DNA from: Pseudomonas promysalinigenes
GTDB lineage: Bacteria > Pseudomonadota > Gammaproteobacteria > Pseudomonadales > Pseudomonadaceae
Length of the DNA: 64,000 nt
Reading direction: 5' to 3'
Assembly (NCBI RefSeq): GCF_014269025.2
Contig: NZ_CP077094.1
Location: 4,982,522-5,046,521 of the forward strand
Every line of letters starts with the position of its first letter. Positions within the stretch are counted from its first letter, which is position 1. The notes beneath the pieces are model-generated. The model searched no databases. It saw nothing but the letters and a program-made list of their open reading frames with translations, and was not told where the DNA came from. The position numbers and the translations under genes were made by a program. Of the stretch, positions 11,759 to 44,924 are shown one piece after another.

Positions 11759-14121
11759 CCGCCCTCATTGCCCCATGGCCGGGCCAGCATCTGGCGAAAC
11801 TCTTGCTCCGGGATTGGCCTGCTGATCAGGTAGCCCTGCACCTCGTCACACCCATGCTCTCGAAGAAACGCCAGTTGCTCCGCCGTTTCCACCCCTTCGG
11901 CGACCACCTTCATGCCCAGGCTCTTGGACAACGTGATGATCGCCTGAGTAATGGCGGCATCTTGGCTGCCTTGGTGAAGGCCGCGGATGAAGGCCTGGTC
12001 GATCTTCAAGTAATCCACCGGCAGGCGTTTGAGGTAACTCAATGACGAATAGCCGGTGCCAAAGTCGTCGATGGCCAGCTTCACCCCAAGGGCATGTAAC
12101 TGCTGGAAGGTCGAAATGATGTGCTCGACGCTGTCGAGCAACTGGCTTTCGGTGAGCTCCAACTCCAGCAAATTCGGCGCCAGCCCGGTGTCTTCGAGCA
12201 TCTGGCGCACCAGGCTGACCAGCTTGCCCTGGCGCAGCTGGTAGACCGAAAGGTTGACAGAAACCCGCACTTCCAGGCCCTGCCGTTGCCATTGCCGGGC
12301 TTGCTTGCAGGCCTGGCGCAGCACGAATTCGCCGATCGGGGCAATCAGCCCAGTTTCCTCGGCCATGCCGATGAACTCCCCTGGAGGCACCATCCCCCGC
12401 TCAGGATGCTGCCAGCGCACCAGTGCCTCGGCGGCATTGACGTGCCCGCTAAGCACGCACAGCTTGGGTTGGTAATACACCATCAGCTGCTGTTCTTCGA
12501 TAGCCTTGCGCAGCTGGTTTTCCAACTGCAAGCGCTCAAGCGTGCTGGCTCGCAGGCTTTCGGTATAGAACTGGAAATTGTCGCCGCCCAAGTGCTTGGC
12601 ATGCTGTTTGGCCATGTCTGCCTGGCCAATCATGGCTTCGGCATCGAGCGTGGCATCAGCCAGTACACTGATACCTACCGATGCACTTATCACCACCTCG
12701 TGGCCATCTAGCCGCTGTGGCTTGCGCAACTTGTTCAACAAGCGGGTGGTGACCCGTACCAGGCTCGACAGGTTGCTGTAGCCATCGAAGAGCACGGCGA
12801 ACTCATCGCCAGAAAGGCGCGCCACGGTATCGGCCTCGGGCAAGGTACTGACAATGCGCCGAGCAACCTTTTGAATCAGCTGGTCGGCCAGTTCATGGCC
12901 AAGGCTTTCGTTAAGCAGTTTGAAACGGTCCAAGTCTATGTGCAGCAAGGCCAGGCTGCGGCCATTGCTGCGTACGCGCCGTGCGGCGTCCAGCAAACGC
13001 AAACGGAACAGTGATCGGTTGGCCAGCCCGGTGAGCTCGTCGTAATGGGCCAGGTAACGCAGGCGCTCTTCAAAGGCTCGACGCGCCGACAGGTCGGTGA
13101 AGAAGCCGACTACTTGGCTCAGCTGGCCGCTGGAGTTGCGCACAGCCGTCAGTTGTAGCCACTGCGGATACAGCTGGCCATGCTTGCGGGCTTCGACCAG
13201 TTCGCCCTGCCACCCACCTTGCTGGCGCAGCGCCACCTCAATGGCCTGGCTGTGCCGCCGGGCATCGCTGTGACAGGGCAGCTCGAACAGCGCACTGGCA
13301 AGCGATTCGCAACGTAGATATCCAGTCATCTGGCAGTACGCCTGGTTCACCGCAAGCACCACAAAATCAGCGCTCAGAATCACCACCCCCTCATTGCATG
13401 CCTCGAAAACCGTGGAGGCAAGGCGCTGCTGTTCCTCAAGCACCTTCTGTGCAGAAATCCGTTGCAAGTCCTGGTTCAGTGACTGGTTCTGAAACCGCCG
13501 CAGCAAACTGCGGTCGAGCAGCCGGTTGACCTGCCAGGCCACCACCAGCAGCGTGGCTAGCAGGATCAGGCAGAACCAGCCCCACCCACGCTGCCCTGCG
13601 TCGAAAAAGAACAGGAAGAGGATCGGCGGCAGCAGACAGGGCAACGCAAAACTGAGAAAAGCCGGCAGGCTGACAGCATAAGCGATGCTTGCACTCAGGC
13701 TGGCCATCGCCAGCAAGCCGAATGCCCAGGCCTGCTGCTCGAAGTTGTGCTGCGGCACCAAAGCGATCGCCGCGCAGGCCAAGGTCATGCCGCTGAATGC
13801 CGAACCGACCAGGAACATGCGCCGCCATACCGGCTCGGCCTGACGCTGCGGGTCGGCCGAGTCGAACGCCGCCACCTGGATCACCCTGAGCGCAACCAGC
13901 GCCAGCAGCCAGGCCAGGCAAACGGCCACCATCAGATAGCGCCCAGGCGTCCACAACAGCCAAGCGCACAGCAGGCCGTTGAGCAGCATGAACAATGTCG
14001 GCAACAAAGAGCCTTGGTACAGCAGCCGCGTCCGCTCGACGGAAAGTTGAGTGGCAAACTGCCTGCGGACCTTCCTGGCCATCCCAGGCGATACTCCGAT
14101 CGCCGTGCAGTCGTGGGTCAT
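11755..14121 (-). CDS. Membrane PAS-GGDEF-EAL protein, probable c-di-GMP phosphodiesterase
   Basis: A 788-residue protein. Five to six hydrophobic segments between residues 40 and 200 form a membrane sensor; a PAS domain follows (about 225-350, [32 protein letters not shown]), then GGDEF (about 355-520) and EAL (about 530-780). The GGDEF signature is degenerate: [10 protein letters not shown], with Ser at the first Gly, so cyclase activity may be lost or reduced. The EAL domain keeps [29 protein letters not shown] and EGVET, the residues needed for c-di-GMP hydrolysis. The likely output is therefore c-di-GMP breakdown in response to a membrane signal. Start ATG at 14121 has a weak SD; ATG 14 codons further in (MARKVRRQF) is possible. 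Confidence 0.9.
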
Positions 14122-26919: not shown

Positions 26920-28359
26920 ATGGATTACCACAGCCCCTACTTCTTCGGCTATGTGCTCGGGCTGATTCACTTGCTCGGGATCATCGCCGCGTTGCATGCG
27001 GTGTTCACCGTGCGCACCGCACAAGGAGCAATCGCGTGGGCGATGTCACTGTTCTTCATACCTTATTTCACACTGATTCCTTATCTGGTTTTCGGGGCTC
27101 GCTCATTCAACGCTTACATCAAAGCTCGGCGCCAGGCCAACCAGGAAATGCACGTTGCCATGGCCAACCTGAACTGGCGGCCGTGGGTGGAGGAAGCGCT
27201 GACCGCCAGAGAGTCAGAAAGCTACGCCGCGTTGCGCGCCATGCCAAAACTGGGACGGATGCCGTGCCTGGCGAACAACCAAGTCAGGTTGCTCGTCAAT
27301 GGTCAGGCCACCTTCGATGCCATATTCAATGCCATCGAGCAGGCTCGCGAAGTCGTGCTGGTGCAATTCTTCATCATCCATGATGACGAATTGGGCCAGG
27401 CCCTTCAGCGATTGCTGCTGCGTAAGGCGGCAGAAGGGGTGCAAGTTTTTGTTCTGTACGACGGGGTGGGCAGCCACGCATTACCCGCCAGCTATAGCCA
27501 AGTGCTACGTGATGGCGGTGTACAGATTCATGCTTTCGCTACACGCCGCGGGTGGTTCAATCGCCTGCAGGTAAATTTCCGCAATCACCGCAAAATCGTT
27601 GTGATCGATGGCCTGATCGGTTTTGTCGGGGGTCACAATGTGGGTGATGAGTACCTAGGCAAACACCGAGTCTTGTCACCCTGGCGCGATACTCATGTTC
27701 AGATCGAGGGGCCAGTTCTGGCTTGCCTGCAAGAATCGTTTGCCGAAGATTGGTACTGGGCAACCCGCGAGCTGCCCCCTTTGATACTGCCCGATACCTA
27801 TCCTGACAATGGCGTGCTCTGCCAGGCCCTTGCCAGTGGGCCAGCGGACCCGCAGGAAACCTGCTCGCTGTTTTTCATCGAAGCTATTCAGTCGGCAACC
27901 AAGCGCGTGTGGATCACCACGCCCTATTTCATCCCTGATGAAGCCGTGTTTGCGGCGTTGCGTCTGGCGGTACTGCGCGGGGTGGACGTACGGGTACTGA
28001 TCCCCGCGCGCCCCGACCATAAAATCGTCTACGCGGCATCAAGCCTTTTCGCATTCGAAGCAGTTCGGGCTGGCGTGCGTATGTTTCGCTATCAGCCGGG
28101 TTTTCTGCACCAGAAGGTTGTACTGGTGGATGACGAGGTGAGTGCGGTCGGCAGTGCCAACCTGGACAACCGTTCATTCAGGCTCAATTTCGAAATCACC
28201 TTGCTCACTGTAGACCGTACCTTCGCCGATCAAGTGGAGGCGATGTTGCTGGACGACTTTGCGCAAGCTCGGGAGATCACTGCAGAGGACAGCCGTGACA
28301 CCCACAGGGTGCAACAGCTGGGTATGCGCATCGCGAGGCTGATTTCACCTATCCTCTGA
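26920..28359 (+). CDS. cls: Cardiolipin synthase A
   Basis: A 479-residue membrane enzyme that condenses two phosphatidylglycerols to cardiolipin. Two N-terminal transmembrane helices (about residues 8-28 and 38-58, [20 protein letters not shown] and [22 protein letters not shown]), then two PLD domains with HKD motifs: [24 protein letters not shown] (about 224-247) and [25 protein letters not shown] (about 394-418). Length is typical for ClsA. I start at ATG 26920 ([11 protein letters not shown]), preceded by an AGG-type SD; the open frame to 26716 overlaps the opposite gene's start and is not expected to be coding. Confidence 0.95.
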
Positions 28360-34295: not shown

Positions 34296-34520
34296 AATCG
34301 TTCATTTTTCATTAATTGATGCGTGAATGAGATCAATCAGTGTGTGAAGCCTCGCGTGCAAGCGCGGCTTGAGGTGCGAGAACTGCCAAAGGCGGCGCGC
34401 TGTCCTGGATCATGGCTAGCTTTGAAGCCAGTTCTTTTAAGCCCTCCTCCCTCTCAAATTTCCGCGAAGCGAACCGATACAACTGGGGCAGCCCGCCATC
34501 ATTTGTCTTGGAGTCCGTCC

Positions 34521-36140
34521 GTGAACGTTAGAAACCTCAACTTGGCGCCGCGAGCAGCGCTGTTCTTCTCCTTGATCGTGGGGCTCGTTGTTGTGCTTGG
34601 GGTGTTCGCAGTCGCCCAAATGAGCAACCTGCGGGACATCGAAAAAGACGTCGAGCTCAACTGGATGGCCAGTATTCGCCAAACCTCGGTGATGAACGCC
34701 TCGATGCTGCGTCTGCGCTTGGAAACTCAGCGCGCCATCGCAGACCCCCGTAGCCTTCAAAAAACCCTGGAAAGCTTCCCTGAGTACCGCAAGGAAATGT
34801 CGGACGCCGTAGCCAACTACGAGCCGCTGATTGCCAGCGATCAGGAGCGCACCCTATTTTCTGCGGTCAAAACCAGCGCGCAGGCCTATCAGCAGCAGCT
34901 CGATCAGCTGGTGCCCTTGATGAGCGCGGGCAACATCGCTGAGGCCGTCAATCTGGTAGCCACTAGCATTCGTCCGCTGACCAGCACCATGGAAGACCAG
35001 ATCGATCAACTTACCGATTTCAACGACAAAGGGGCCGCACAAGCGGGCCAGACCGCAGCCAACCTCTACTCCACAGGTCGCTGGCTGGTGATCGGGATCA
35101 TTGTCGGGGTGGTGCTGCTGACCATGGGCCTAGCACTGCTGCTGACCCGAAGCATCGTCTCCCCCATCAGCGATGCGTTGTCCGTGGCTGAGCGCATCGC
35201 CAACAGTGACCTGTCCAAGGACGTGAAGGTCACTGGGGCCGATGAAGCAGGCCGGCTGCTCAAGGCGTTGGCGCAGATGCAAGAGAACTTGCGCAATACC
35301 ATTGTGCAGATCTCGGACTCATCCACTCAGTTGGCCTCGGCCTCCGAGGAAATGACAGCGGTGACGGAGGCTTCCAGCCGTGGCCTGGTCGCTCAGAATG
35401 ACGAGGTCAACCAGGCGGCGACGGCTGTGACCGAAATGAGCGCAGCCGTGGATGAAGTCGCTCGTAATGCAGAATCCGCCTCGCAAGACTCCAAACGTAC
35501 CCAAGGCTTCACCCAAAGTGGTCAGGAGCGGGTGGCGCAGACCTTGAAGTCGATTCAACGGCTCAGCGGCAACGTGGAGCAGACCAGCGAGCAAATCCAA
35601 GGCCTGTCGGATCGCGCGCAAGATATCTCCAAAGTCGTCGAGGTGATCCGCGGCATCGCCGAGCAAACCAACCTGCTGGCTCTGAATGCGGCAATCGAGG
35701 CGGCTCGCGCAGGTGAACAGGGCCGAGGTTTTGCCGTGGTCGCAGACGAAGTCAGGGCGCTGGCACACCGCACCCAGTTGTCGACCCAAGAGATCGAACA
35801 GATGATCGCAACCATTCAGGCCGACTCCGAGCAGGCGGTTCAGGCGATGAATACCAGCCGTGACCTGGCCACCCAGTCCCTGAGTATCGCCCAGGAGGCG
35901 AGCAGCTCATTGGATGAAATCGCCAGTGCGATCACGCAGATCAACGAACGTAACCTGCAAATCGCCACAGCCTCCGAGGAGCAGTCCCACGTAGCGCGTG
36001 AAGTGGACCAGAACCTTCTGCGCATTCGCGACCTGGCTTCGCAAAGCGCAGCCGGTGCGAGCCAGACGGCGAGCGCCAGCAGTGAGATGTCGCAATTGGC
36101 CATCAATTTGAATCAGCTGGTAACGCGGTTCGTGGTCTGA
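34521..36140 (+). CDS. Methyl-accepting chemotaxis protein
   Basis: A 539-residue membrane chemoreceptor. TM1 is at residues 12-32 ([22 protein letters not shown]), a periplasmic four-helix-bundle sensor of about 155 residues follows, TM2 is at about 188-208 ([21 protein letters not shown]), then HAMP (about 209-262) and the signalling domain with the hairpin tip [43 protein letters not shown]. No C-terminal CheR-binding pentapeptide is seen. GTG 34521 is chosen: GGAG lies seven bases upstream and the protein starts directly before TM1; the longer frame to 34323 is unlikely. Ligand unknown. The 299 bp before it holds the divergent leader repeat and no other gene. Confidence 0.92.
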
Positions 36141-36160
36141 CATCGGACGGTGGGCTGCAT

Positions 36161-36180
36161 GGGTGAAGCCTGCTTCACCC
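36161..36180 (+). terminator. Possible terminator hairpin after the chemoreceptor gene
   Basis: GGGTGAA / TTCACCC, 7-bp stem, loop GCCTGC, 20 bp after the stop codon. Only TCTGG follows, with no T-run, so it is tentative. Confidence 0.45.
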
Positions 36181-36334
36181 TCTGGCGCGCGTCGTATTTG
36201 GGTTTCAGGAACGCTTGGAAAACGGCCTTGCTTTCGACCACAAGCGGCTCTCACCTTTAGCCCTGGTTTGGCCGTTAGGCTGCTGATGCTGCGATGAAAG
36301 CCGGCATGTTGATCAGGCAAACCAGCAATACTTT

Positions 36335-37315
36335 TCAAAAGTAATCATCAATGGATCTGGCTGCTCTGATTCGTTCATCTCGCGCCGCCTCTACTTGCTC
36401 AAGCGACTGCAGCGAGCATGCCTGCTCTTTGTAGCGATACATCTCCCCTGCAGGTTCGGCGACTACTACCCCGCCTTCGGCCAACAGCGCCAGCCGTGTG
36501 CCAGCAGGTAACCCAGTCATCGCGCAGTCTTCGGGGCCTAGGTGAAAAGACGCATAAACCAACAACTCGTGTGACGCCCACCGGAGCTTGCTGTTGACTA
36601 CTTCGGAGAACGCAAGAAGGATCACGGCGGTATAAATCACGCCTAGCACGCACGATGCATTCACCCACTGGCGCCGGAACCCGTCCGAGCTGGGTACGAA
36701 AAGATTCCAGCAAATAGCAGTAGTGTGGCTACGCCTTACACGCTGTTTGAAAGCCGGCGCCATCATGCCGAATACCAAGGCACCGATTAACATCACCATC
36801 GCCAGGAGTAAACTCGCTGCCAGATACCAGATGTAAACCAAATAGACGAATGTCAGGGTTTTCTGTGCACCGGGAAACTGCCCCGGCTCGATACGCGTCT
36901 GCCCGAGGATGAAAGCGTCAGCTTCAGCGCTGGCTACGAGGCCCACCGCTACCGTCAGCAATGCGGCCAGTACCGTCAACCATCCCTTGTGCCGGGTATA
37001 ACGCTCTACCAGCCGTAGCAAGCGTACAGCCAGCATTATCGACCCCAGGCTGAGCACCGCGAATATCCACTTCGCCAAGGTTTTATCAAGTGTGCTGCCC
37101 AACCACTGAAGCATCATCATGACCTGCAAGACAAACGCACAGGTCATAACCATCGCAGCGAGATACTCGTCGACGGCCCAGTGTTTGACATTGAAATTCA
37201 GTTTCCAGCGAAAGTGTCGGTTCTGAGTTCGGACGAAAAGCGGCCGATGAATACTACGATCCAACCAATAGATGCCCGCTGCGAACAGCACATAGAGCGC
37301 AATATATCCCCACAT
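36335..37315 (-). CDS. Hypothetical multi-pass membrane protein
   Basis: A 326-residue protein with about six hydrophobic segments: MWGYIALYVLFAAGIYWLD at the start, EYLAAMVMTCAFVLQVMMMLQWL, KWIFAVLSLGSIMLAVRLL, GWLTVLAALLTVAVGLVAS, FVYLVYIWYLAASLLLAMVMLIGALVFGM, and CVLGVIYTAVILLAF. The C-terminal 80 residues are hydrophilic (HLGPEDCAMTGLPAGTRLALLAEGGVVVAEPAGEMYRYKEQ). No family recognised. It lies at the start of the region between the chemoreceptor and glmS that looks strain-variable, 27 bp downstream of the GST gene on the same strand, so the two may be cotranscribed. Confidence 0.7.
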   Translation of the reverse strand: MWGYIALYVLFAAGIYWLDRSIHRPLFVRTQNRHFRWKLNFNVKHWAVDEYLAAMVMTCAFVLQVMMMLQWLGSTLDKTLAKWIFAVLSLGSIMLAVRLLRLVERYTRHKGWLTVLAALLTVAVGLVASAEADAFILGQTRIEPGQFPGAQKTLTFVYLVYIWYLAASLLLAMVMLIGALVFGMMAPAFKQRVRRSHTTAICWNLFVPSSDGFRRQWVNASCVLGVIYTAVILLAFSEVVNSKLRWASHELLVYASFHLGPEDCAMTGLPAGTRLALLAEGGVVVAEPAGEMYRYKEQACSLQSLEQVEAARDERIRAARSIDDYF

Positions 37316-37342
37316 AAGCCTAGGTTTCCTTGAACGTGCCCT

Positions 37343-37966
37343 TCACGGCGTGCCGTTGCGGCCATGCAGCCGGAAGCCGGTACGCTCACTCAGGCGCTCG
37401 TAATAGGCACTAACCGCAGGAAAGTCCGGGTGGGTCAGCGGCGTTTCGAACCAGCGGTTCACCGAAAGGCCGATCGGGATATCCGCCAGGGAGAACTCGC
37501 AACCACTGACGTACGCCCCCGTTTTGTCGAGCTGTCTGTCCAGAATCGCCATGTGCCTAGTCCATTCACGACACCCTAGCGCCAGAGCTTCTGGGTCCTG
37601 ATGGGTAACACTTTTTCTGACTAGCGACATGAAGGCATAGCCCCAAGACTTATTGAAGTCGCTAGCCTGCCAATCCATCCACTGGTCCACCCGGGCTCTG
37701 GGTTTCGCCTCTGCCGGATAAAGATGAATGGCATTTTCCCGGTTCGCCAAGTATCGAATGATCGTGTTGGACTCCCACATTACGAACCCCTCGTCGTCGA
37801 TTACCGGCACCATTGCGTTGGGGTTCAGCGCAGTGAATTCGGGTGTATCGGTGTTCCTGAAGCCAGAGCCCCAGTCCTGTCGCTCGAAGGGAATCTGCAA
37901 CTCGGCACATGTCCAAACCACCTTGCGAACATTGATCGAAGAAGCCTTGCCCAGAATTTTTAGCAT
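37343..37966 (-). CDS. Glutathione S-transferase family protein
   Basis: A 207-residue GST. The N-terminal thioredoxin-like domain (1-80) has [27 protein letters not shown] with Ser in the catalytic position, [26 protein letters not shown] with the cis-Pro and the glutathione-binding E-S; the C-terminal helical domain ends [41 protein letters not shown]. This is the beta/theta-like bacterial type used in detoxification or stress. The SD AAGGAGG is nearly perfect. Substrate unknown. Neighbour of a membrane protein gene in the accessory region. Confidence 0.9.
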
Positions 37967-38043
37967 TTCACCTCCTTATGATCGGAAAACGTACAATCCT
38001 CATCGATTCCATTCTCGCCAGCATGGAACATTAAACGATCTTC

Positions 38044-38198
38044 ATGTACCTCGCTGAACTCACCATAAAAACTTCCGCATGCTGCGTGACACAAAACTGA
38101 AATTTCACCCCGGGTTGAAAGTTCTGGTCGGGCCCAACAACGTAGGAAAAAGCGCCGTTGGCGATGCGCTGCGAACGCTTCTGGCCGGGCATGAATAG
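38044..38198 (+). pseudogene. Remnant of an OLD-family ATPase/nuclease gene (frameshifted, truncated)
   Basis: ATG 38044 opens MYLAELTIK and then runs off frame at five A (38067-38071); with one more A it would continue as NFRMLRDTKLKF, the typical start of OLD-family SMC-like ATPases. The downstream frame (ATG 38079) reads LKVLVGPNNVGKSAVGDAL, with the Walker A motif GPNNVGKS, and stops at TAG 38196-38198. So 5' about 150 bp of such a gene remain with a frameshift and premature end. OLD proteins are ATP-dependent nucleases often tied to phage defence. No toprim part is present nearby. Confidence 0.7.
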
Positions 38199-38558
38199 CC
38201 GTAGTTATCCCTAAGTGTGATAGAAGCTCCCTTGCCCACCATTCTTCATCGACTCGGGCCATTCGTCCGTTGGGCTGTGCGCTGCATTGGCAAGGCTGTC
38301 CTCTAAGGACACCGGCCAGAGCCTCTATCATGCGAAAGCTATACCAGTCGATAGCCCACCGGCCATTCACTGCGTCAAGCACGCGTCTAAGAGGCCCGTT
38401 GGCGCATGGAAATCCTGGCGATAAGGGTGATGGCGTCCACTTAAAAATACACGGACACCATCGCCCTTAAAGCTGGAGTTCGAAGGATGAGTTCGCCGGA
38501 CGCTTACCGATAATATGAGTCAGCAAGTACTCAAATTAGCGGTAGCTGGCGAGGTTGT
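38199..38558. other. Gene-poor stretch with a long imperfect hairpin and a possible IS end
   Basis: No convincing gene. A 17-bp imperfect inverted repeat lies at 38422-38438 and 38453-38469 (15 Watson-Crick pairs, one G-T and one mismatch; left arm TAAGGGTGATGGCGTCC). Shortly after, the minus strand from 38507 reads GTAAGCGTCCGGCGAAC; GTAA is the conserved tip of IS66-family repeats, so 38507 may be one end of a decayed IS66-like element whose body is lost. A minus-strand frame of about 60 codons (VLDAVNGRWAIDWYSFRM) exists but is not recognisable. Confidence 0.4.
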
Positions 38559-39719
38559 TCAGGGGCGTTTGCCAACCTCTGCGATCTGGGCGGTCCATGT
38601 TTTCACCTGCTCGCTGAGCGACAGGCCCAGACCAGGCCGGGTCGGGACAATCATGCGGCCATTACGCGTTTCCAGTCGCTCGTTGAACAGCGGTTCCAAC
38701 CATTCGAAGTGCTCCACCCATGGCTCTGTAGGGTAGGTCGCCGCCAAATGCACATGCAGCTCCATCGCAAAGTGTGGAGCAATCATCACCCCAGCCTGTT
38801 CTGCCAACGCTGCCACCTTCAGGTATGGCGTGATACCGCCTACACGAGGTGCGTCTGGCATGAGGTAGTCTGCGCCGCGCAATTTGATGAATTCAGCGTG
38901 CTCAGCCACGCTGGTCAGCATTTCACCGGTCGCGATTGGAGTATCGAATTGCTGAGCAAGGGCCGCGTGGCCTTCGGCGTCATAGCAATCGAGTGGCTCT
39001 TCGATCCATACCAGGTTGAATTCTTCGAATCGCCGGCACATCCGTTGGGCGGTAGGTCTGTCCCATTGTTGGTTCGCATCGACCATCAAGGGGAAGTTCT
39101 CACCCAGATGTTCCCTAACGGTACTCACACGATGGAGGTCAATCGAGCAGTCAGGTTGGCCTACCTTCAGCTTAATGCCACCGATACCTTTCTCACGGGA
39201 AAGATCAGTGTTTTTCAACAGTTGGTCGAGCGGGGTGTGTAGGAAACCTCCGGAGGTGTTGTAGCAGCGCACCGAATCACGTTGAGCACCAAGCAGGCGA
39301 GAGAGCGACAAATTGGCTCGTTTTGCTTTGAGATCCCACAGGGCTACATCGAATGCACCAATAGCCTGGGTCGAAAGTCCGCTCCGCCCCACCGAAGCGC
39401 CGGCCCAGCACAACTTTGTCCACAATTTGGCAATGTCACTTGGATTTTCGCCGATCAGCGCAGGCGCGATCTCCTTGGCGTGCGCAAATTGCCCTGGTCC
39501 ACCTGCCCGTTTGGAGTAACTGAAGCCTATACCTTTGTGCCCATCCTCTGTTTCGATTTCAGCGAACAATATCGCGATTTCAGTCATTGGCTTTTGTCGG
39601 CCAGTGAGTACCTTGGCGTCACTGATTGGGTTCGCCAGTGGCAGGAACACTGACGAGACCTTCACATACGCAATGCGATCGTGGTCGGAGGAAAGATGTT
39701 GTTGTTCTTGGGTAAGCAT
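38559..39719 (-). CDS. L-talarate/galactarate dehydratase (enolase superfamily)
   Basis: A 386-residue dehydratase of the mandelate racemase subgroup. It closely follows the known Salmonella L-talarate/galactarate dehydratase along its length as I recall it: PISDAKVLTGRQKPMTEIAI, GFSYSKRAGG, LCWAGASVGRSGLSTQAIGAFDVALWDLKAK, CYNTSGGFLHTPLDQLLKN, GIGGIKLKVGQPDCS (the K-x-K base pair), MVDANQQWDR and WIEEPLDCYD (metal ligands), TGEML, and APHFAMELHVHL (His base). It turns galactarate or talarate into 2-keto-3-deoxy sugar acid. SD CAGGAGAG is good. It is downstream of the MFS permease on the same strand (30 bp). Later pathway genes are absent from the window. Confidence 0.88.
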   Translation of the reverse strand: MLTQEQQHLSSDHDRIAYVKVSSVFLPLANPISDAKVLTGRQKPMTEIAILFAEIETEDGHKGIGFSYSKRAGGPGQFAHAKEIAPALIGENPSDIAKLWTKLCWAGASVGRSGLSTQAIGAFDVALWDLKAKRANLSLSRLLGAQRDSVRCYNTSGGFLHTPLDQLLKNTDLSREKGIGGIKLKVGQPDCSIDLHRVSTVREHLGENFPLMVDANQQWDRPTAQRMCRRFEEFNLVWIEEPLDCYDAEGHAALAQQFDTPIATGEMLTSVAEHAEFIKLRGADYLMPDAPRVGGITPYLKVAALAEQAGVMIAPHFAMELHVHLAATYPTEPWVEHFEWLEPLFNERLETRNGRMIVPTRPGLGLSLSEQVKTWTAQIAEVGKRP

Positions 39720-39749
39720 GAGGCTCTCCTGATGGACGAATGTGATGTT

Positions 39750-41111
39750 TCAACGCAAAGGCTGAGAGACGGTAGGTTGGTTGGAGTCGGATGAGCTAAC
39801 CGGGTCTTCCAGGCCATCGACCTCCAAACGCGTTAGTGGCCCGACGATGACTAGGTAGGCAAAGGCGCCTAGCAGGCCCATTGCAGCGACGTAGACCAGC
39901 GCGGCATCAAACGAGCCTTGCTTGACCAACAGGCCGATAGCGATGGGGGTGACGATGCTGGCGATGTTGCCGCAGAAGTTGAACATCGCCCCGCTTGTGC
40001 CCATGGCGCGTTTGGGCGATATGTCGCCGACGATGCACCATCCGAGGTTGCCGACGCCTTTTGCGAAGAAAGCTATGGACATCACCAAGATTACGAGCGG
40101 TACCGACTGGGTGTAATTGGCCACTACAATGCTGCTCGACAGTAGAAGGCCACAGATGATTGGGGTCTTGCGCGCAGCCGTCAGGCTGAAACCTTTCTTC
40201 AACATCCAATCCGACCATACTCCACCGATCATCCCGCCCAGGCAGCCAGCCACAGGTGGGATCGCTGCCACTAGTCCGACCTTGAGGAGGGTCATGCCCT
40301 TGGCTTCGATCAGGTAGGTGGGGAACCAGGTCAGGAAGAACCAAGTGATCGATGTCAGGCAGAACTGGCCCAGGTAGATGCCGGCCATCATGCGGTTGGC
40401 CGCAATATCACGCAGTCGCGCCCAGCTGAAGGGGGTTTTGATATCACCCATATCAGGCAGGCCGCCACCGCTTTCGATGTAGTCCAGTTCGGCCTGGTTG
40501 ACGCGTTTGTCGCGGCGAGGCTCATGGACAAATTTGAACCAAGCCAGGCCAATTAGGATGCCGGCACCGCCAGTCCAGAAGAACACGTGTTGCCAGCCGA
40601 AGCTATTGAGCAGCAGCACCATCAGCGGCGTAAACGCTGCCAAGGCGAAGTATTGCGCCGACTGGAAGATCGCCGTGGCCAGACCTCGCTCATGCCGTGG
40701 GAACCACATTACGGTCAGTCGATTGTTGGCCGGGAAGGCCGGCGACTCGGCCACGCCCATCATGAAGCGAAGCACGAACAGCGCGAGAAACGCCGAGCTG
40801 AACAAGTCGACGTAGCCCTGCAAAAAGGTAAAGCTCGACCAGATGATGAGGCTCAGGCCCAGCACCAGACGCGACCCGAATCGGTCAAGAATTACACCAC
40901 CGGGCAGCTGCATCGCAGTATATGCCCAGCCAAATGCCGAGAAAGCGATGCCCATAGTCACGGCGTCAAAGCCGAGGTCAGCCCGCATTGCCGGTGCGGC
41001 AATCGACAGGGTGGCGCGGTCAACATAATTGAATACGGTGACGATGAAGATCATCGCCAGGATTAGGTAGCGGACATTTGTCCTAGCCACCTCTGAGGAT
41101 GGAGTGATCAC
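39750..41111 (-). CDS. MFS permease, GudP/GarP-like (galactarate/glucarate type)
   Basis: A 453-residue transporter of the anion:cation symporter family with twelve helices. Signature segments: RYLILAMIFIVTVFNYVDRATLSIAAPAM (helix 1, N-Y-x-D-R), GWAYTAMQLPGGVILDRFGSRLVLGLSL (loop 2-3), RFMMGVAESPAFPANNRLTVMWFPRHERGLATAIFQSAQYFA, and GNLGWCIVGDISPKRAMGTSGAMFNFCGNIASIVTPI. This fits glucarate/galactarate permeases, and the dehydratase next to it supports galactarate or talarate as substrate. The start is GTG 41109-41111 with SD AAGGAA. Two near-identical palindromic operators lie 46 and 124 bp upstream of the start. Confidence 0.9.
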   Translation of the reverse strand: MITPSSEVARTNVRYLILAMIFIVTVFNYVDRATLSIAAPAMRADLGFDAVTMGIAFSAFGWAYTAMQLPGGVILDRFGSRLVLGLSLIIWSSFTFLQGYVDLFSSAFLALFVLRFMMGVAESPAFPANNRLTVMWFPRHERGLATAIFQSAQYFALAAFTPLMVLLLNSFGWQHVFFWTGGAGILIGLAWFKFVHEPRRDKRVNQAELDYIESGGGLPDMGDIKTPFSWARLRDIAANRMMAGIYLGQFCLTSITWFFLTWFPTYLIEAKGMTLLKVGLVAAIPPVAGCLGGMIGGVWSDWMLKKGFSLTAARKTPIICGLLLSSSIVVANYTQSVPLVILVMSIAFFAKGVGNLGWCIVGDISPKRAMGTSGAMFNFCGNIASIVTPIAIGLLVKQGSFDAALVYVAAMGLLGAFAYLVIVGPLTRLEVDGLEDPVSSSDSNQPTVSQPLR

Positions 41112-41156
41112 TGTTGTTTTCCTTGTTGTGATGTTCGGCCCTGGTTGTGATTACGC

Positions 41157-41174
41157 AATGATTGCGCAACCATT
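41157..41174. promoter_or_regulatory. LacI-type operator O1 upstream of the permease gene
   Basis: AATGATTGCGCAACCATT is an 18-bp palindrome with a single symmetry break compared with the perfect site at 41235. Its central GC and arms are those of LacI/GntR-type operators. It lies 46 bp before the permease start, where it could block initiation or elongation. Confidence 0.75.
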
Positions 41175-41234
41175 TTTGGATCGAAAAACAGCCACCGGCA
41201 GGTAGGCAGCAGGTGACCGTGTTTTTGATCTTAC

Positions 41235-41252
41235 AATGATTGCGCAATCATT
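41235..41252. promoter_or_regulatory. LacI-type operator O2, perfect palindrome
   Basis: AATGATTGCGCAATCATT reads identically on both strands over 18 bases. It is centred 78 bp from O1 and lies 43 bp beyond the 3' end of the LacI-family regulator gene. The spacing of about seven helical turns would allow looping by a tetrameric regulator. Confidence 0.8.
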
Positions 41253-41294
41253 CAAGAGCACATTCGTCGCTTTCAAAAAAGTGATGAAGATGTA

Positions 41295-42347
41295 TCAGGT
41301 GCTCTGACGGTCGATTAAGCGGAATCCTGTGTCGACCCTAATCGGCTCGTGACTGCTTGCCGGATAGCGGAATCTGTCTAGCAGGGCCTTGGCAATCTGC
41401 TCGCCGATAAACTTGCCATCGACGCGCACCGTAGAAAGGGGGGGATGCACTTGAGCCGCGCTGCTCAAGTCGCCGAAGCCCATGATTGCGAGATCTTCAG
41501 GAACTCGTAGGTTTCGACTAGCTGCCTCTGCCAGTACCCCCTGCGCGACCGTGTCGGAGCTGCAAACTATGACTTGAGGATGGTGTCCTTCGTCCAGGAG
41601 TTGGCACAGCCCTGCACGGCCAACCTCCAACGTAGCAGGCGGGGGCATGATTACCGTTGGCACATTGCTGCAGCCGTGACGTGCCAGCTCGGCGACCAAG
41701 CTATTGCAGCGGCGTAGACCACGTGGGTCGCCAAGGCTTACGACGCCATAACGCTGATACCCTTTGCCCATGAGGTGGCGTGCAATTGCCTCACCAACGG
41801 CTTCATGAGAGAAGCCTACCTGCATGTCCAGTGGGTTCTCACTAAGATCCCAAGACTCAACTACTGGAATACCTGATTGAGCTAACCGCTGACGACTGGC
41901 TTCGGTATGCAGGGTGCCAGTGAGCACGATCCCGTCCGGACGACGGCCAAGCAACGCGCCGATCAGCTTTTCTTCCTGCTCAGCGGAATAGCCAGTGAGT
42001 CCGAGAAGTGTTTGGTAGCCAGCGGATGTGAGCGAGTCCATGAGTGCTTGGACTGTGTCGGCAAAGATCGAGTTGGCAATAGTTGGAAGCAGGATCGCAA
42101 CCAGGCGGCTCTTGTTGCTCGCCAAGCTGCCGGCAAGCATGTTCGAGACGTACCCGACTTGGCGTACAGCAGTCAAAACCTTCTCTCGTGCAGCCTTGCT
42201 CACTACCTCAGGACGATGCAGTGCCCGAGACACAGTGATGGGAGATACGCCGGCGACTTTGGCGACATCGATTAAGGTTGGGCTGAGTGATTTTTTCGAA
42301 CCTCCCCCACGCTGACCGCCGAGAGACTCCCCTGATTTGCTTACCAT
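41295..42347 (-). CDS. LacI-family transcriptional regulator of the galactarate/talarate cassette
   Basis: A LacI-family repressor of about 350 residues. The HTH is SPTLIDVAKVAGVSPITVSRALHRPEVVSKAAREKVLTAVRQVGYVSNMLAGSLASNKS, of the GntR (gluconate repressor) subgroup; the effector domain has VAILLPTIANSIFADTVQALMDSL, GRRPDGIVLTGTLHTEASRQRLAQSGIPVVESWD, GFSHEAVGEAIARHLMGKGYQRYGVVSL and ends with RPEP-like PASSHEPIRVDTGFRLIDRQST. ATG 42345-42347 (MVSKSGES) is preferred; the frame extends to a TTG at 42398. Same direction as the permease and dehydratase, 183 bp upstream of them, with both operators in that gap. A sugar acid is the likely inducer. Confidence 0.87.
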   Translation of the reverse strand: MVSKSGESLGGQRGGGSKKSLSPTLIDVAKVAGVSPITVSRALHRPEVVSKAAREKVLTAVRQVGYVSNMLAGSLASNKSRLVAILLPTIANSIFADTVQALMDSLTSAGYQTLLGLTGYSAEQEEKLIGALLGRRPDGIVLTGTLHTEASRQRLAQSGIPVVESWDLSENPLDMQVGFSHEAVGEAIARHLMGKGYQRYGVVSLGDPRGLRRCNSLVAELARHGCSNVPTVIMPPPATLEVGRAGLCQLLDEGHHPQVIVCSSDTVAQGVLAEAASRNLRVPEDLAIMGFGDLSSAAQVHPPLSTVRVDGKFIGEQIAKALLDRFRYPASSHEPIRVDTGFRLIDRQST

Positions 42348-42526
42348 GCTGATCCCATTTGATTGATGTTCCGATGTCGCTCTATCAGAATCTATCAAAG
42401 CGCGATTGATTGCTAGACTTGCACCTGCGAGGAGTGACGTAGGGATAAGCTCGGCTCGGCTGAATGATTCGCGCCTGGTTTCTTAGACACCTCCAAGCCT
42501 CAAATGAGGCCCAAATAGGAGGTGCC

Positions 42527-42737
42527 ATGAGTCACCAGCGTTACTCCAAAGAATTCAAGATCGAAGCGGTCAAGCGAGTGACCGAGAAGGCAAACCTGTG
42601 GCCGAGGTCGCCCAGCGGCTGGGGATGTCCGTACACAGCCTTCACGCCTGGATCAAGGTCTACAGCAAGCCCCAAGAGCAGCGTCAGCAAGACAGTGATC
42701 AGCAGGCCGAACTGCGCAGGCTGCGCGCCGAGCTCAA
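42527..42737 (+). pseudogene. IS3-family transposase OrfA fragment, frameshifted and truncated
   Basis: ATG 42527 (SD AGGAGG) starts MSHQRYSKEFKIEAVKRVTEK, the usual N-terminus of IS3/IS911-type OrfA. At 42587-42590 one G is missing (GAGAAGGCAAACC); in the next frame the protein resumes as VAEVAQRLGMSVHSLHAWIKVYSKPQ and QAELRRLRAELK, the HTH and leucine-zipper start. Sequence is lost after 42737, before the rest of OrfA and all of OrfB. The upstream 60 bp (TTTCTTAGACACCTCC) probably keep the left end of the element. Confidence 0.85.
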
Positions 42738-42965
42738 ATGCAGCCGATCGAAACAGTAGCTTCCACCCCACCCGAGAAAACCGAAATTTCTTTCAGGTCA
42801 GATTTGAAGAATCTGAACCTTATTTTGAAGTTTACGGATGTCGTCGACAGCATGAGAGTCCCAGCTGAGGAACAAAGAACGTTCCAGATACGAGCGAATC
42901 GACTCTTCAGGCTGAATTTGCAGACGCGGTATGGAGAGCATGCTGAGATTGCTTGGATAACGTAA
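42738..42965 (+). CDS. Hypothetical short frame abutting the IS fragment
   Basis: A 75-codon frame whose ATG lies exactly at the point where IS similarity ends: MQPIETVASTPPEKTEIS, then RSDLKNLNLILKFTDVVDSMRVPAEEQRTFQIRANRLFRLNLQTRYGEHAEIAWIT. Base composition is lower in GC than the neighbours. No family recognised and no SD of its own. It may be the C-terminal remainder of a gene broken by the IS insertion, or not coding. Confidence 0.3.
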   Translation: MQPIETVASTPPEKTEISFRSDLKNLNLILKFTDVVDSMRVPAEEQRTFQIRANRLFRLNLQTRYGEHAEIAWIT

Positions 42966-42983
42966 CTGAGTGGTGCCGACTCA

Positions 42984-43018
42984 CGCGACCGCGGCCCCTA
43001 CAGAAGGCTGCGGTCGCG
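42984..43018. terminator. Long GC-rich hairpin downstream of glmS
   Basis: CGCGACCGC-G-GCC (42984-42996) pairs with GGC-T-GCGGTCGCG (43006-43018) through nine outer pairs, a G-T pair and three inner pairs, loop of nine. It lies about 70 bp beyond the glmS stop codon and may be its terminator; no T-run on either side. Confidence 0.6.
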
Positions 43019-43025
43019 CATGACA

Positions 43026-43065
43026 GCTTTTATTGTCGCGGTACCGCTTTTATTGTCGGAAACCA
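43026..43065. mobile_element. Possible Tn7-like transposon end at attTn7
   Basis: Read on the minus strand from 43065: TGGTTTCC, then GACAATAAAAGC (43057-43046), and after 8 bp a second identical CGACAATAAAAGC (43038-43026). Tn7 ends begin TGTGGGCG followed directly by GACAATAAAG, a TnsB-binding repeat. Here TG is placed at the same 8-bp distance from the first repeat, two repeats lie 20 bp apart, and the TG is the 24th base after the glmS stop codon, where Tn7 inserts. No matching second end was found and no tns genes are present, so it would be a relic. Alternatively this is ordinary glmS-downstream sequence. Confidence 0.45.
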
Positions 43066-43088
43066 ACTGCTCCGGAACACTATGCGCC

Positions 43089-43124
43089 CTACTCCACCGT
43101 CACCGACTTCGCCAAGTTACGCGG
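43089..43124 (-). other. attTn7 TnsD recognition region at the glmS 3' end
   Basis: The final codons of glmS (encoding [11 protein letters not shown] and the stop) make up the region recognised by TnsD in Tn7; here on the minus strand they begin CCGCGTAACTTGGCGAAGTC. Insertion falls about 24 bp beyond the stop codon, near 43065. Confidence 0.85.
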
Positions 43125-44924
43125 CTGGTCAACATCGGTCCCTTTAAGCACCGCAACATAGTACGAGAGCAACTGCAGCGGAATGGTATAAAGAATCGGC
43201 GCCAGTTCATCGACGATGTGCGGCACTTTGATCACATGGGTGCCTTCGCCATTACTCATACCGGCGTTCTCATCCGCGAACACCACCAACTCGCCACCAC
43301 GGGCACGCACTTCCTGCAGGTTGGACTTTAACTTTTCCAGCAGCTCGTTGTTCGGCGCCACAGTGACCACTGGCATGTCGTTATCCACAAGCGCCAGCGG
43401 GCCGTGCTTGAGCTCGCCTGCTGGGTAGGCTTCAGCATGGATGTAAGAGATTTCCTTGAGCTTCAGCGCACCTTCCATGGCCACCGGGTATTGCGCGCCA
43501 CGGCCGAGGAACAGGGTGTGGTGCTTGTCGGCGAACAGCTCGGCGGTTTTCTCTACGGTGCTGTCCATGGCCAAGGCTTCGCCCAGGCGCGCAGGCAGGC
43601 GGCGGAGTTCTTCCACCAGCCCAGCTTCTACGCCAGCTTCGAGGGTGCCACGCACTTGGCCCAGGGCCAGGGTCAGCAGCATCAGCGAGACCAGCTGAGT
43701 GGTGAATGCCTTGGTCGATGCCACGCCGATTTCCGGGCCGGCCAGGGTCAGCAGGGTGAGGTCCGACTCGCGAACCAGCGAGCTGATACCCACGTTGCAG
43801 ATCGCCAGGCTACCGAGGAAACCCAGTTCCTTGGCATTGCGCAGGGCGGCCAGGGTGTCGGCGGTTTCGCCGGACTGGGAGATGGAGACGAACAGGGTAT
43901 CAGGCTGCACCACCACCTTGCGGTAGCGGAACTCGCTAGCCACTTCAACTTGGCATGGGATACCGGCCAGGCTTTCGAGCCAGTAACGAGCAACCATGCC
44001 TGCATGGTAGCTGGTACCACAGGCGACGATCTGCACGTTGCGAACCTTGGCGAACAGCTGCTCGGCCTGCGGGCCGAAAGCCTGAACCATCACGTGGTCC
44101 TTGCCCAGGCGGCCTTCGAGCGTGCGCTGCACCACGGCTGGCTGCTCGTGGATTTCTTTGAGCATGAAGTGGCGGTATGCGCCCTTGTCGGCGGCTTCGG
44201 CGCCTTCGTGGTACTGCACGGTCTCACGTTGTACCGGCAAGCCGCTCTGGTCCCAGATCTTCACCTGGTCGCGGCGGATCTCGGCGATATCGCCCTCCTC
44301 CAGATACATGAAGCGGTCGGTGACCTGGCGCAGGGCCAATTGGTCGGACGCGAGGAAGTTTTCCCCATGGCCTAGGCCGATCACCAGCGGGCTGCCACTG
44401 CGTGCGGCCACCAGGCGATCAGGCTGCTTGATGCTGATCAGGGCCAGGCCGTAGGCGCCATGCAGGCGCTTGACCGCAGCTTTGAGGGCCTCGGCGATGT
44501 CCGGGTTGCTCTTGAGCGTGTGGTGGATCAGGTGAACGATGACTTCGGTATCGGTCTGCGAGCTGAACACATAGCCCAGCGCTTTGAGCTCTTCGCGTAG
44601 CTCTTCGTGATTTTCGATGATGCCGTTATGGACAACCGCCACTTCACTGTTGGAGAAATGCGGGTGAGCATTACCCTCGGTCGGTGCGCCATGAGTAGCC
44701 CAGCGGGTGTGGGCGATACCCAGCTGGCCATTGAGCGGCTCGGCAGCTACCGCGGCTTCCAATTCAGCGACTTTGCCGATGCGGCGGCGGCGCTGCAGCT
44801 CGCCCTGCTGGGTATACACGGCCAGGCCGGCACTGTCGTACCCGCGGTACTCAAGACGCTTGAGGCCTTCGATGAGAATGGCTGTGATGTTACGCTCGGC
44901 TACGGCACCAACGATTCCACACAT
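43089..44924 (-). CDS. glmS: Glucosamine-fructose-6-phosphate aminotransferase (isomerising)
   Basis: A 611-residue enzyme making glucosamine 6-phosphate from fructose 6-phosphate and glutamine, the entry to UDP-GlcNAc, peptidoglycan and LPS. The N-terminal glutamine amidotransferase has the catalytic Cys next to the initiator Met ([10 protein letters not shown]) and [10 protein letters not shown]; two SIS domains follow ([35 protein letters not shown]); the C-terminus is [13 protein letters not shown]. The start lies 2 bp from the glmR stop codon, so glmR and glmS are cotranscribed. The 3' end carries the conserved TnsD-binding sequence of attTn7. Confidence 0.97.

Follow-up and report, generated by a model that had tools for sequence, protein, structure and literature searches.

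Sequence evidence for a decayed Tn7-like transposon downstream of glmS in Pseudomonas promysalinigenes

Introduction

Immediately downstream of glmS in Pseudomonas promysalinigenes we find what is very probably the decayed relic of a Tn7-like transposon, consisting of the left end of the element, a stump of its tniQ gene, a stump of an IS3-family element and probably some cargo. The relic lies in a stretch of 64,000 nucleotides (contig NZ_CP077094.1, positions 4,982,522 to 5,046,521), which is called the window in the following. The sequence itself shows the end and its match to an element possessing all tns genes, as well as the gene order, the two stumps and the absence of a TnsB of this family. 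In known systems the target of Tn7 is the 3′ end of glmS, and relatives of Tn7 reportedly form islands, as the title of a 2007 paper claims. The relic is a new example of an already known kind of insertion and requires no new mechanism. Among the papers listed by literature searches, which covered a minority of the subscription journals, none describes this relic in its title or abstract opening.

Results

The neighboring host gene glmS (43089-44924, minus strand) codes for a protein with Pfam SIS and GATase domains and has full-length matches in all 38 genomes counted, in addition to weaker paralogues. On the minus strand its stop codon is followed by 23 bases ending in GCAGT and then by TGGTTTCC GACAATAAAAGC GGTACCGC GACAATAAAAGC. 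The left-end tip TGGTTTCC (43065-43058) begins at base 24 past the stop codon, which is the Tn7 insertion point, as the preliminary description had said. The first putative TnsB site (43046-43057, minus strand; together with the tip 43046-43065) begins 8 bp inside the TG of the tip, and the second one (43026-43037, minus strand), an identical 12-mer, follows at a distance of 20 bp from start to start, so that the placement of the doublet at 43026-43065 and its layout were described correctly. The GCAGT at 43066-43070 (minus strand) adjoining the tip is the presumed 5-bp target sequence; a second copy was not found in the window.

Single copies of the 12-mer with up to two mismatches are not significant in the window (3 found and 3.04 expected). 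With a weight matrix derived from eight related sites, among them the window doublet, and an even background, the exact copies score 19.4, and the best of 200 mononucleotide shuffles of one strand of the window scores 18.8. When up to two mismatches are allowed, 3 of 149 genus genomes including the own one contain the doublet, once in each, and the reversed control pattern gave 0 matches among the genus genomes listed. The exact pair of putative sites is above chance by these comparisons, unlike the loose single-site matches.

One plasmid record, NZ_CP087161.1 of Pseudomonas sp. CIP-10, matched the end together with the bases following it (92.6% over 325 bases). On this plasmid the near-identical end opens an element with the order left end, TniQ-family gene (343 aa), IS3 copy, TnsD-family gene and candidates for tnsA, tnsB and tnsC. 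Its cargo is a type I restriction-modification system, and an inverted end of the same type is located about 17.6 kb further along. The encoded proteins contain Pfam TniQ and TnsD domains, and the tnsC candidate was assigned by its AAA/TniB domains and the gene order only. Neither the tnsA nor the tnsB candidate has a match in Pfam or NCBIfam; profiles built from eight relatives each match the solved Tn7 proteins, with an E value of 3.5e-7 for TnsB and 4.2e-5 for TnsA. The flanks of the plasmid copy, CCCAG and CCAGC, form an imperfect duplication. The tip and the first site are identical in the window, in the plasmid element (L033) and in P. putida KH-21-134 (G045), and the plasmid supports the proposal that the doublet forms the end of a Tn7-like element on the side of glmS. 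The window and the plasmid element have in common the left end, the start of tniQ and the order and orientation of the IS3 copy. They differ in that the plasmid element possesses all tns genes and a right end and resides on a plasmid, away from glmS.

To place the element family at glmS we examined 18 stretches from 17 genomes, most of which were picked because tniQ or tnsB had already been placed there. The order glmS, end, tniQ is present in all 12 stretches that hold both glmS and tniQ, and 11 of these continue with tnsD in the opposite direction, tnsA, tnsB and tnsC. In G179 the genes tnsD, tnsA and tnsB are found on a second stretch running to the contig end. Two sites 20 bp apart were detected by pattern between glmS and tniQ in 11 of the 12 stretches; the twelfth (L182) has, judged by eye, a degenerate form of the two-site left end. 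A strict right-end pattern for duplications gave nothing in the 12 glmS-side stretches, the far ends being outside of them. The geometry of the right end is based on the CIP-10 plasmid, on KH-21-134 and on L192, which has two outward sites 113 bp apart.

Behind the end, the window retains the 5′ part of tniQ (42736-42941, minus strand), which starts with the start codon at 42941 and is cut off at 42736. The frame beginning with MLSIPRLQIQPEESIRSYLERSLFL at 42941 is the start of the tniQ gene of the CIP-10 plasmid, whose product is annotated as TniQ family and matches Pfam TniQ. In an alignment of 333 columns window and plasmid differ at 27 columns, none of them within the first 53, and single-base gaps occur at columns 252, 287 and 327; we therefore regard the tniQ stump as a pseudogene. 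It is adjoined by an IS3-family fragment (42465-42737, plus strand) with an intact outer end at 42465 and an inner part that is cut where it meets tniQ. This fragment is 91% identical over 276 columns to the IS3 copy following tniQ on the CIP-10 plasmid, which has the same orientation, and its plasmid matches are annotated as IS3 family transposase. Order and orientation of tniQ and IS3 agree between the CIP-10 plasmid, KH-21-134 and the window. This common order could have arisen more than once, since such IS3 copies are common and the own genome contains another one. The latter is a nearly full-length second IS3 (G000:C1:1748151-1748425, L226), 92% identical to the plasmid IS3 over 1231 bases.

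A search with the TnsB protein of the CIP-10 element, the only tnsABC protein searched separately in the own genome, gave matches in 39 of 398 genus genomes, of which 27 reached E <= 1e-70; there was no match in the own genome. Thus the assumption that the tns genes have been lost agrees with the absence of a family TnsB but goes too far in one respect, as about 206 bp of tniQ and the IS3 fragment remain. For PF15978 and PF06527 there was no match in the own genome, the controls in the same search being likewise empty, and the phage collection gave no match at the 'near' sensitivity.

An inverted right end with the duplication GCAGT, as postulated in the preliminary description, was not found in the window. 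An exact search for the core was negative, as were a search for the right tip of the plasmid element with up to 5 mismatches and a local alignment of its terminal 200 bp. Patterns with a TG tip on the plus strand and the GCAGT duplication followed by TG yielded nothing standing out in the window. With the weight matrix, applied to both strands, the best plus-strand score was 14.3 at position 28015, in DNA common to relatives. These searches would miss a strongly altered end. In near relatives the site after glmS is occupied or empty and the end sequence is absent, which speaks against the 40 bp being native sequence.

The preliminary description had also pointed to Tn7-like elements at glmS of P. 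putida, and in strain KH-21-134 (NZ_MINI01000038.1; L036/G045) there is indeed a relic with both ends of the same element. Three layers are stacked behind glmS in this strain (G045:C37:182807-224590, L144-L146), with the newest one adjoining glmS. The first layer is an element of another end type (182807-219656) with CGTTG on both flanks. The second layer, at 219660-224558, is a 4.9-kb relic of the element found in the window, and its left end, lying 37 kb from glmS, shows 4 differences in 252 bases to the CIP-10 plasmid. It contains pieces of tniQ, IS3 and tnsC; tnsA, tnsB and tnsD were not found inside the relic. Its right end has two sites 112 bp apart, as on the CIP-10 plasmid, and a tip that has decayed to TA. 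It is followed by AACGT and then by the left end of the third layer, and each of the three stacked left ends has a site type of its own. Insertion of the younger element has changed the left flank of the relic to CACGT. With this insertion discounted, it reads AACGT by eye and equals the right flank, and the relic would appear to have had the 5-bp target duplication AACGT. The relics in the window and in KH-21-134 share the left end, the tniQ stump and the IS3 piece. They differ in that KH-21-134 has kept the right end and a piece of tnsC and has a younger element between the relic and glmS.

Between the relic and the DNA common to relatives lies an accessory block of 8.1 kb (34341-42464), which may hold remains of cargo. 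The DNA of the relatives resumes at 34337-34340, and in L040 this point is located about 70 bases past glmS. The block is a mosaic of genes with relatives at scattered places elsewhere: among the matches listed from 398 genomes, every place other than the own one spans at most about 3.8 kb of the 6.3 kb queried, and the LacI-MFS-MR_MLE part is also found elsewhere as a unit. The preliminary description had supposed that the element explains this block. The end may be real and the block still not its cargo, having arrived separately by other insertions in the interval or by recombination, with the relic merely adjacent to it; we consider the chances for and against such a separate arrival to be evenly balanced. 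It is favored by the scattered relatives of the block genes among the matches listed, by the other genes that occupy the interval after glmS in L034 and L035, by the existence of stacked elements at the glmS site and by the failure to detect a right end beyond the block. On the other hand, no further left end of the scanned pattern is present in the window, and two observations link block genes to glmS. First, the chemoreceptor gene (34509-36140, plus strand; Pfam MCPsignal), the most likely cargo gene, is rare and has matches at E <= 1e-100 in 6 of 119 genomes including the own one, with 84% identity in G024 and 71-72% in the other four. The match in G024, the best among the 119 genomes, lies about 11 kb from glmS, and glmS of G024 is followed by a decayed doublet of this type with two mismatches and a changed tip. 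Therefore it is plausible that the chemoreceptor is old cargo of the element. Second, relatives of the GST and MR_MLE genes of the block, with 82% and 86% amino acid identity, are no more than 10 kb away from glmS in P. viridiflava ICMP 19473 (L061) and P. zanjanensis (L102), a proximity for which there is no control frequency. The element thus possibly explains the block, but only in part, with the chemoreceptor as plausible cargo.

Some smaller features of the block were noted. The interval between the MFS and the LacI-type genes contains a pair of direct repeats of 36 bp (78% alike) and inverted arms of 31 bp (41139-41252), which are perhaps operator sites. A segment of 167 bp at 38037-38203 shares 95% identity with G331:C10:219126-219293; the surrounding genes are far less similar. 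In L061 the relative of the window GST gene (about 12056-12697) lies just behind glmS.

Discussion

The locus combines a position just past glmS, with the left end toward glmS (tip at base 24 compared to 21-26 for other ends), a TG tip with repeated transposase-type sites, homology of the end to that of an element with tnsA, tnsB, tnsC and tnsD/tniQ, and remains of element genes behind the end, namely the tniQ 5′ part and the IS3 piece. A functional element would in addition be expected to have tnsA, tnsB and tnsC in the genome and an inverted right end with a 5-bp duplication, and neither a family TnsB in the own genome nor such an end in the window was found. We infer the following order and mechanism of decay. 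A Tn7-like transposon of a Pseudomonas family would have inserted 23 bp past the glmS stop codon with its left end facing glmS; by the Tn7 scheme a TnsD-type protein would recognize the end of glmS and the TnsB transposase would bind the repeated sites. The intact order would be left end, tniQ, IS3, tnsD, tnsA, tnsB, tnsC, cargo and right end, the IS3 copy presumably being an old part of the lineage. A deletion would then have fused tniQ, at about codon 69, with the interior of the IS3 copy. The outer IS3 end would mark the border of a further loss, similar to deletions started by IS elements, in which tnsD and tnsABC were removed. The right end would be gone or beyond recognition, and the remainder (left end, tniQ stump, IS3 stump and probably some cargo) would be immobile.

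Just inside the second site a hairpin is predicted (42975-43027, minus strand) with a fold of -36.0 kcal/mol and a z score of -3.83 relative to mononucleotide shuffles. Other left ends likewise have a predicted hairpin in this position, with z <= -2 in 11 of 18 ends (the window and 17 others; mononucleotide shuffles). The predicted hairpin is a possible transcription stop between glmS and the element and might end glmS transcripts after insertion. One could suppose that the end is a working part even now and is kept by selection, e.g., because it terminates glmS transcripts or is a scar conferring immunity to related elements. The hairpins and the absence of differences in the first 53 alignment columns, with 27 in 333, would fit, but we judge this unlikely: constraint while the element was alive would give the same pattern, L037 stacks two ends of one site type, and the end in G024 has changed. 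With an even spread of the 27 differences over the 333 columns, the first 53 would be free of them with a probability of about 0.01; this figure is not decisive because constraint on the living element explains the unchanged columns equally well.

Orphan left ends could more specifically be scars of target immunity, at which the transposase sites repel related elements, and unrelated families insert between glmS and the scar. The unchanged end next to a tniQ stump with indels and the three site types of the stacked left ends in KH-21-134 are in line with this idea, and if it were true the scars would represent a layered record of past insertions beside glmS. We nevertheless hold it to be very unlikely, as the ends in L037 are of one site type and the unchanged end may predate the death of the element. 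Finally, one could take doublet and hairpin for the normal sequence downstream of glmS, perhaps a terminator, with a chance resemblance to Tn7. This is almost certainly wrong: the position immediately past glmS and the strong predicted hairpin right behind the sites would suit a terminator, but the nearest relatives lack the sequence after glmS, and it occurs on a plasmid before tniQ and tns genes and 37 kb from glmS in KH-21-134, and we rejected this reading given an end that is identical over the first 53 columns at places away from glmS.

For the preferred reading, a decayed Tn7-like insertion, the comparison with Tn7 itself is instructive. Both share the insertion just past glmS, the TG tip and the distance of 8 bp from the tip to the start of the first GACAATAAA-type site (in the right end of Tn7), and the relatives of the window element have homologues of TnsA, TnsB and TnsD. 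For Tn7 we used what we take to be its right-end sequence, which had matches in 65 plasmid records; in 61 of these the match extended over at least 80%. It differs from the window in having two exact copies of GACAATAAAGTC 40 bp apart, whereas the window sites are 20 bp apart and are followed by the hairpin and tniQ. Furthermore, the element in the window has an extra tniQ at its left end and is only a relic. The insertion of Tn7 just past glmS via TnsD is established (PMC2918618). Elements with two TniQ-family genes are common, and tandem tniQ/tnsD genes were counted at 1,048 loci (Faure and others 2023, PMC10293859). The dual tniQ-tnsD elements of the Tn7 branch described there share with our family the two TniQ-family genes per element; they differ in that here tniQ is located by the left end, where it is separated from tnsD and points the other way.

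The relic shows that a dead Tn7-like insertion can be recognized by a short terminal doublet. The neighborhood of glmS in some Pseudomonas keeps layers of such insertions, with the newest adjoining glmS, and deciphering them could help to establish which accessory genes arrived as cargo. We searched 80 named glmS loci, being those closest in glmS similarity and not a random sample, for a pattern describing such ends in general (TG, 7-11 bp, core, 13 bp, core). This pattern occurs 21-26 bases past the glmS stop codon in 12 of the 80 loci and never on the reverse strand; the remaining forward matches fall on the third site of three-site arrays (offset 43-47) or belong to two stacked ends. A looser census found a site core 22-48 bases past the stop codon in 19 of the 80 loci, using a loose pattern without a control of its own. 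Matches to tns proteins of the CIP-10 element family, the family covered by the census, are present within the sequence examined (up to 10 kb) in 8 of these 19 loci; the other 11 are candidate orphans at most. The metagenome-assembled genome L037 has its two left ends of one site type 25 and 6461 bases past the glmS stop codon, i.e., 6.4 kb apart, and the same six bases precede each tip. In P. viridiflava ICMP 19473 an apparent degenerate single-site end, judged by eye, is located behind glmS.
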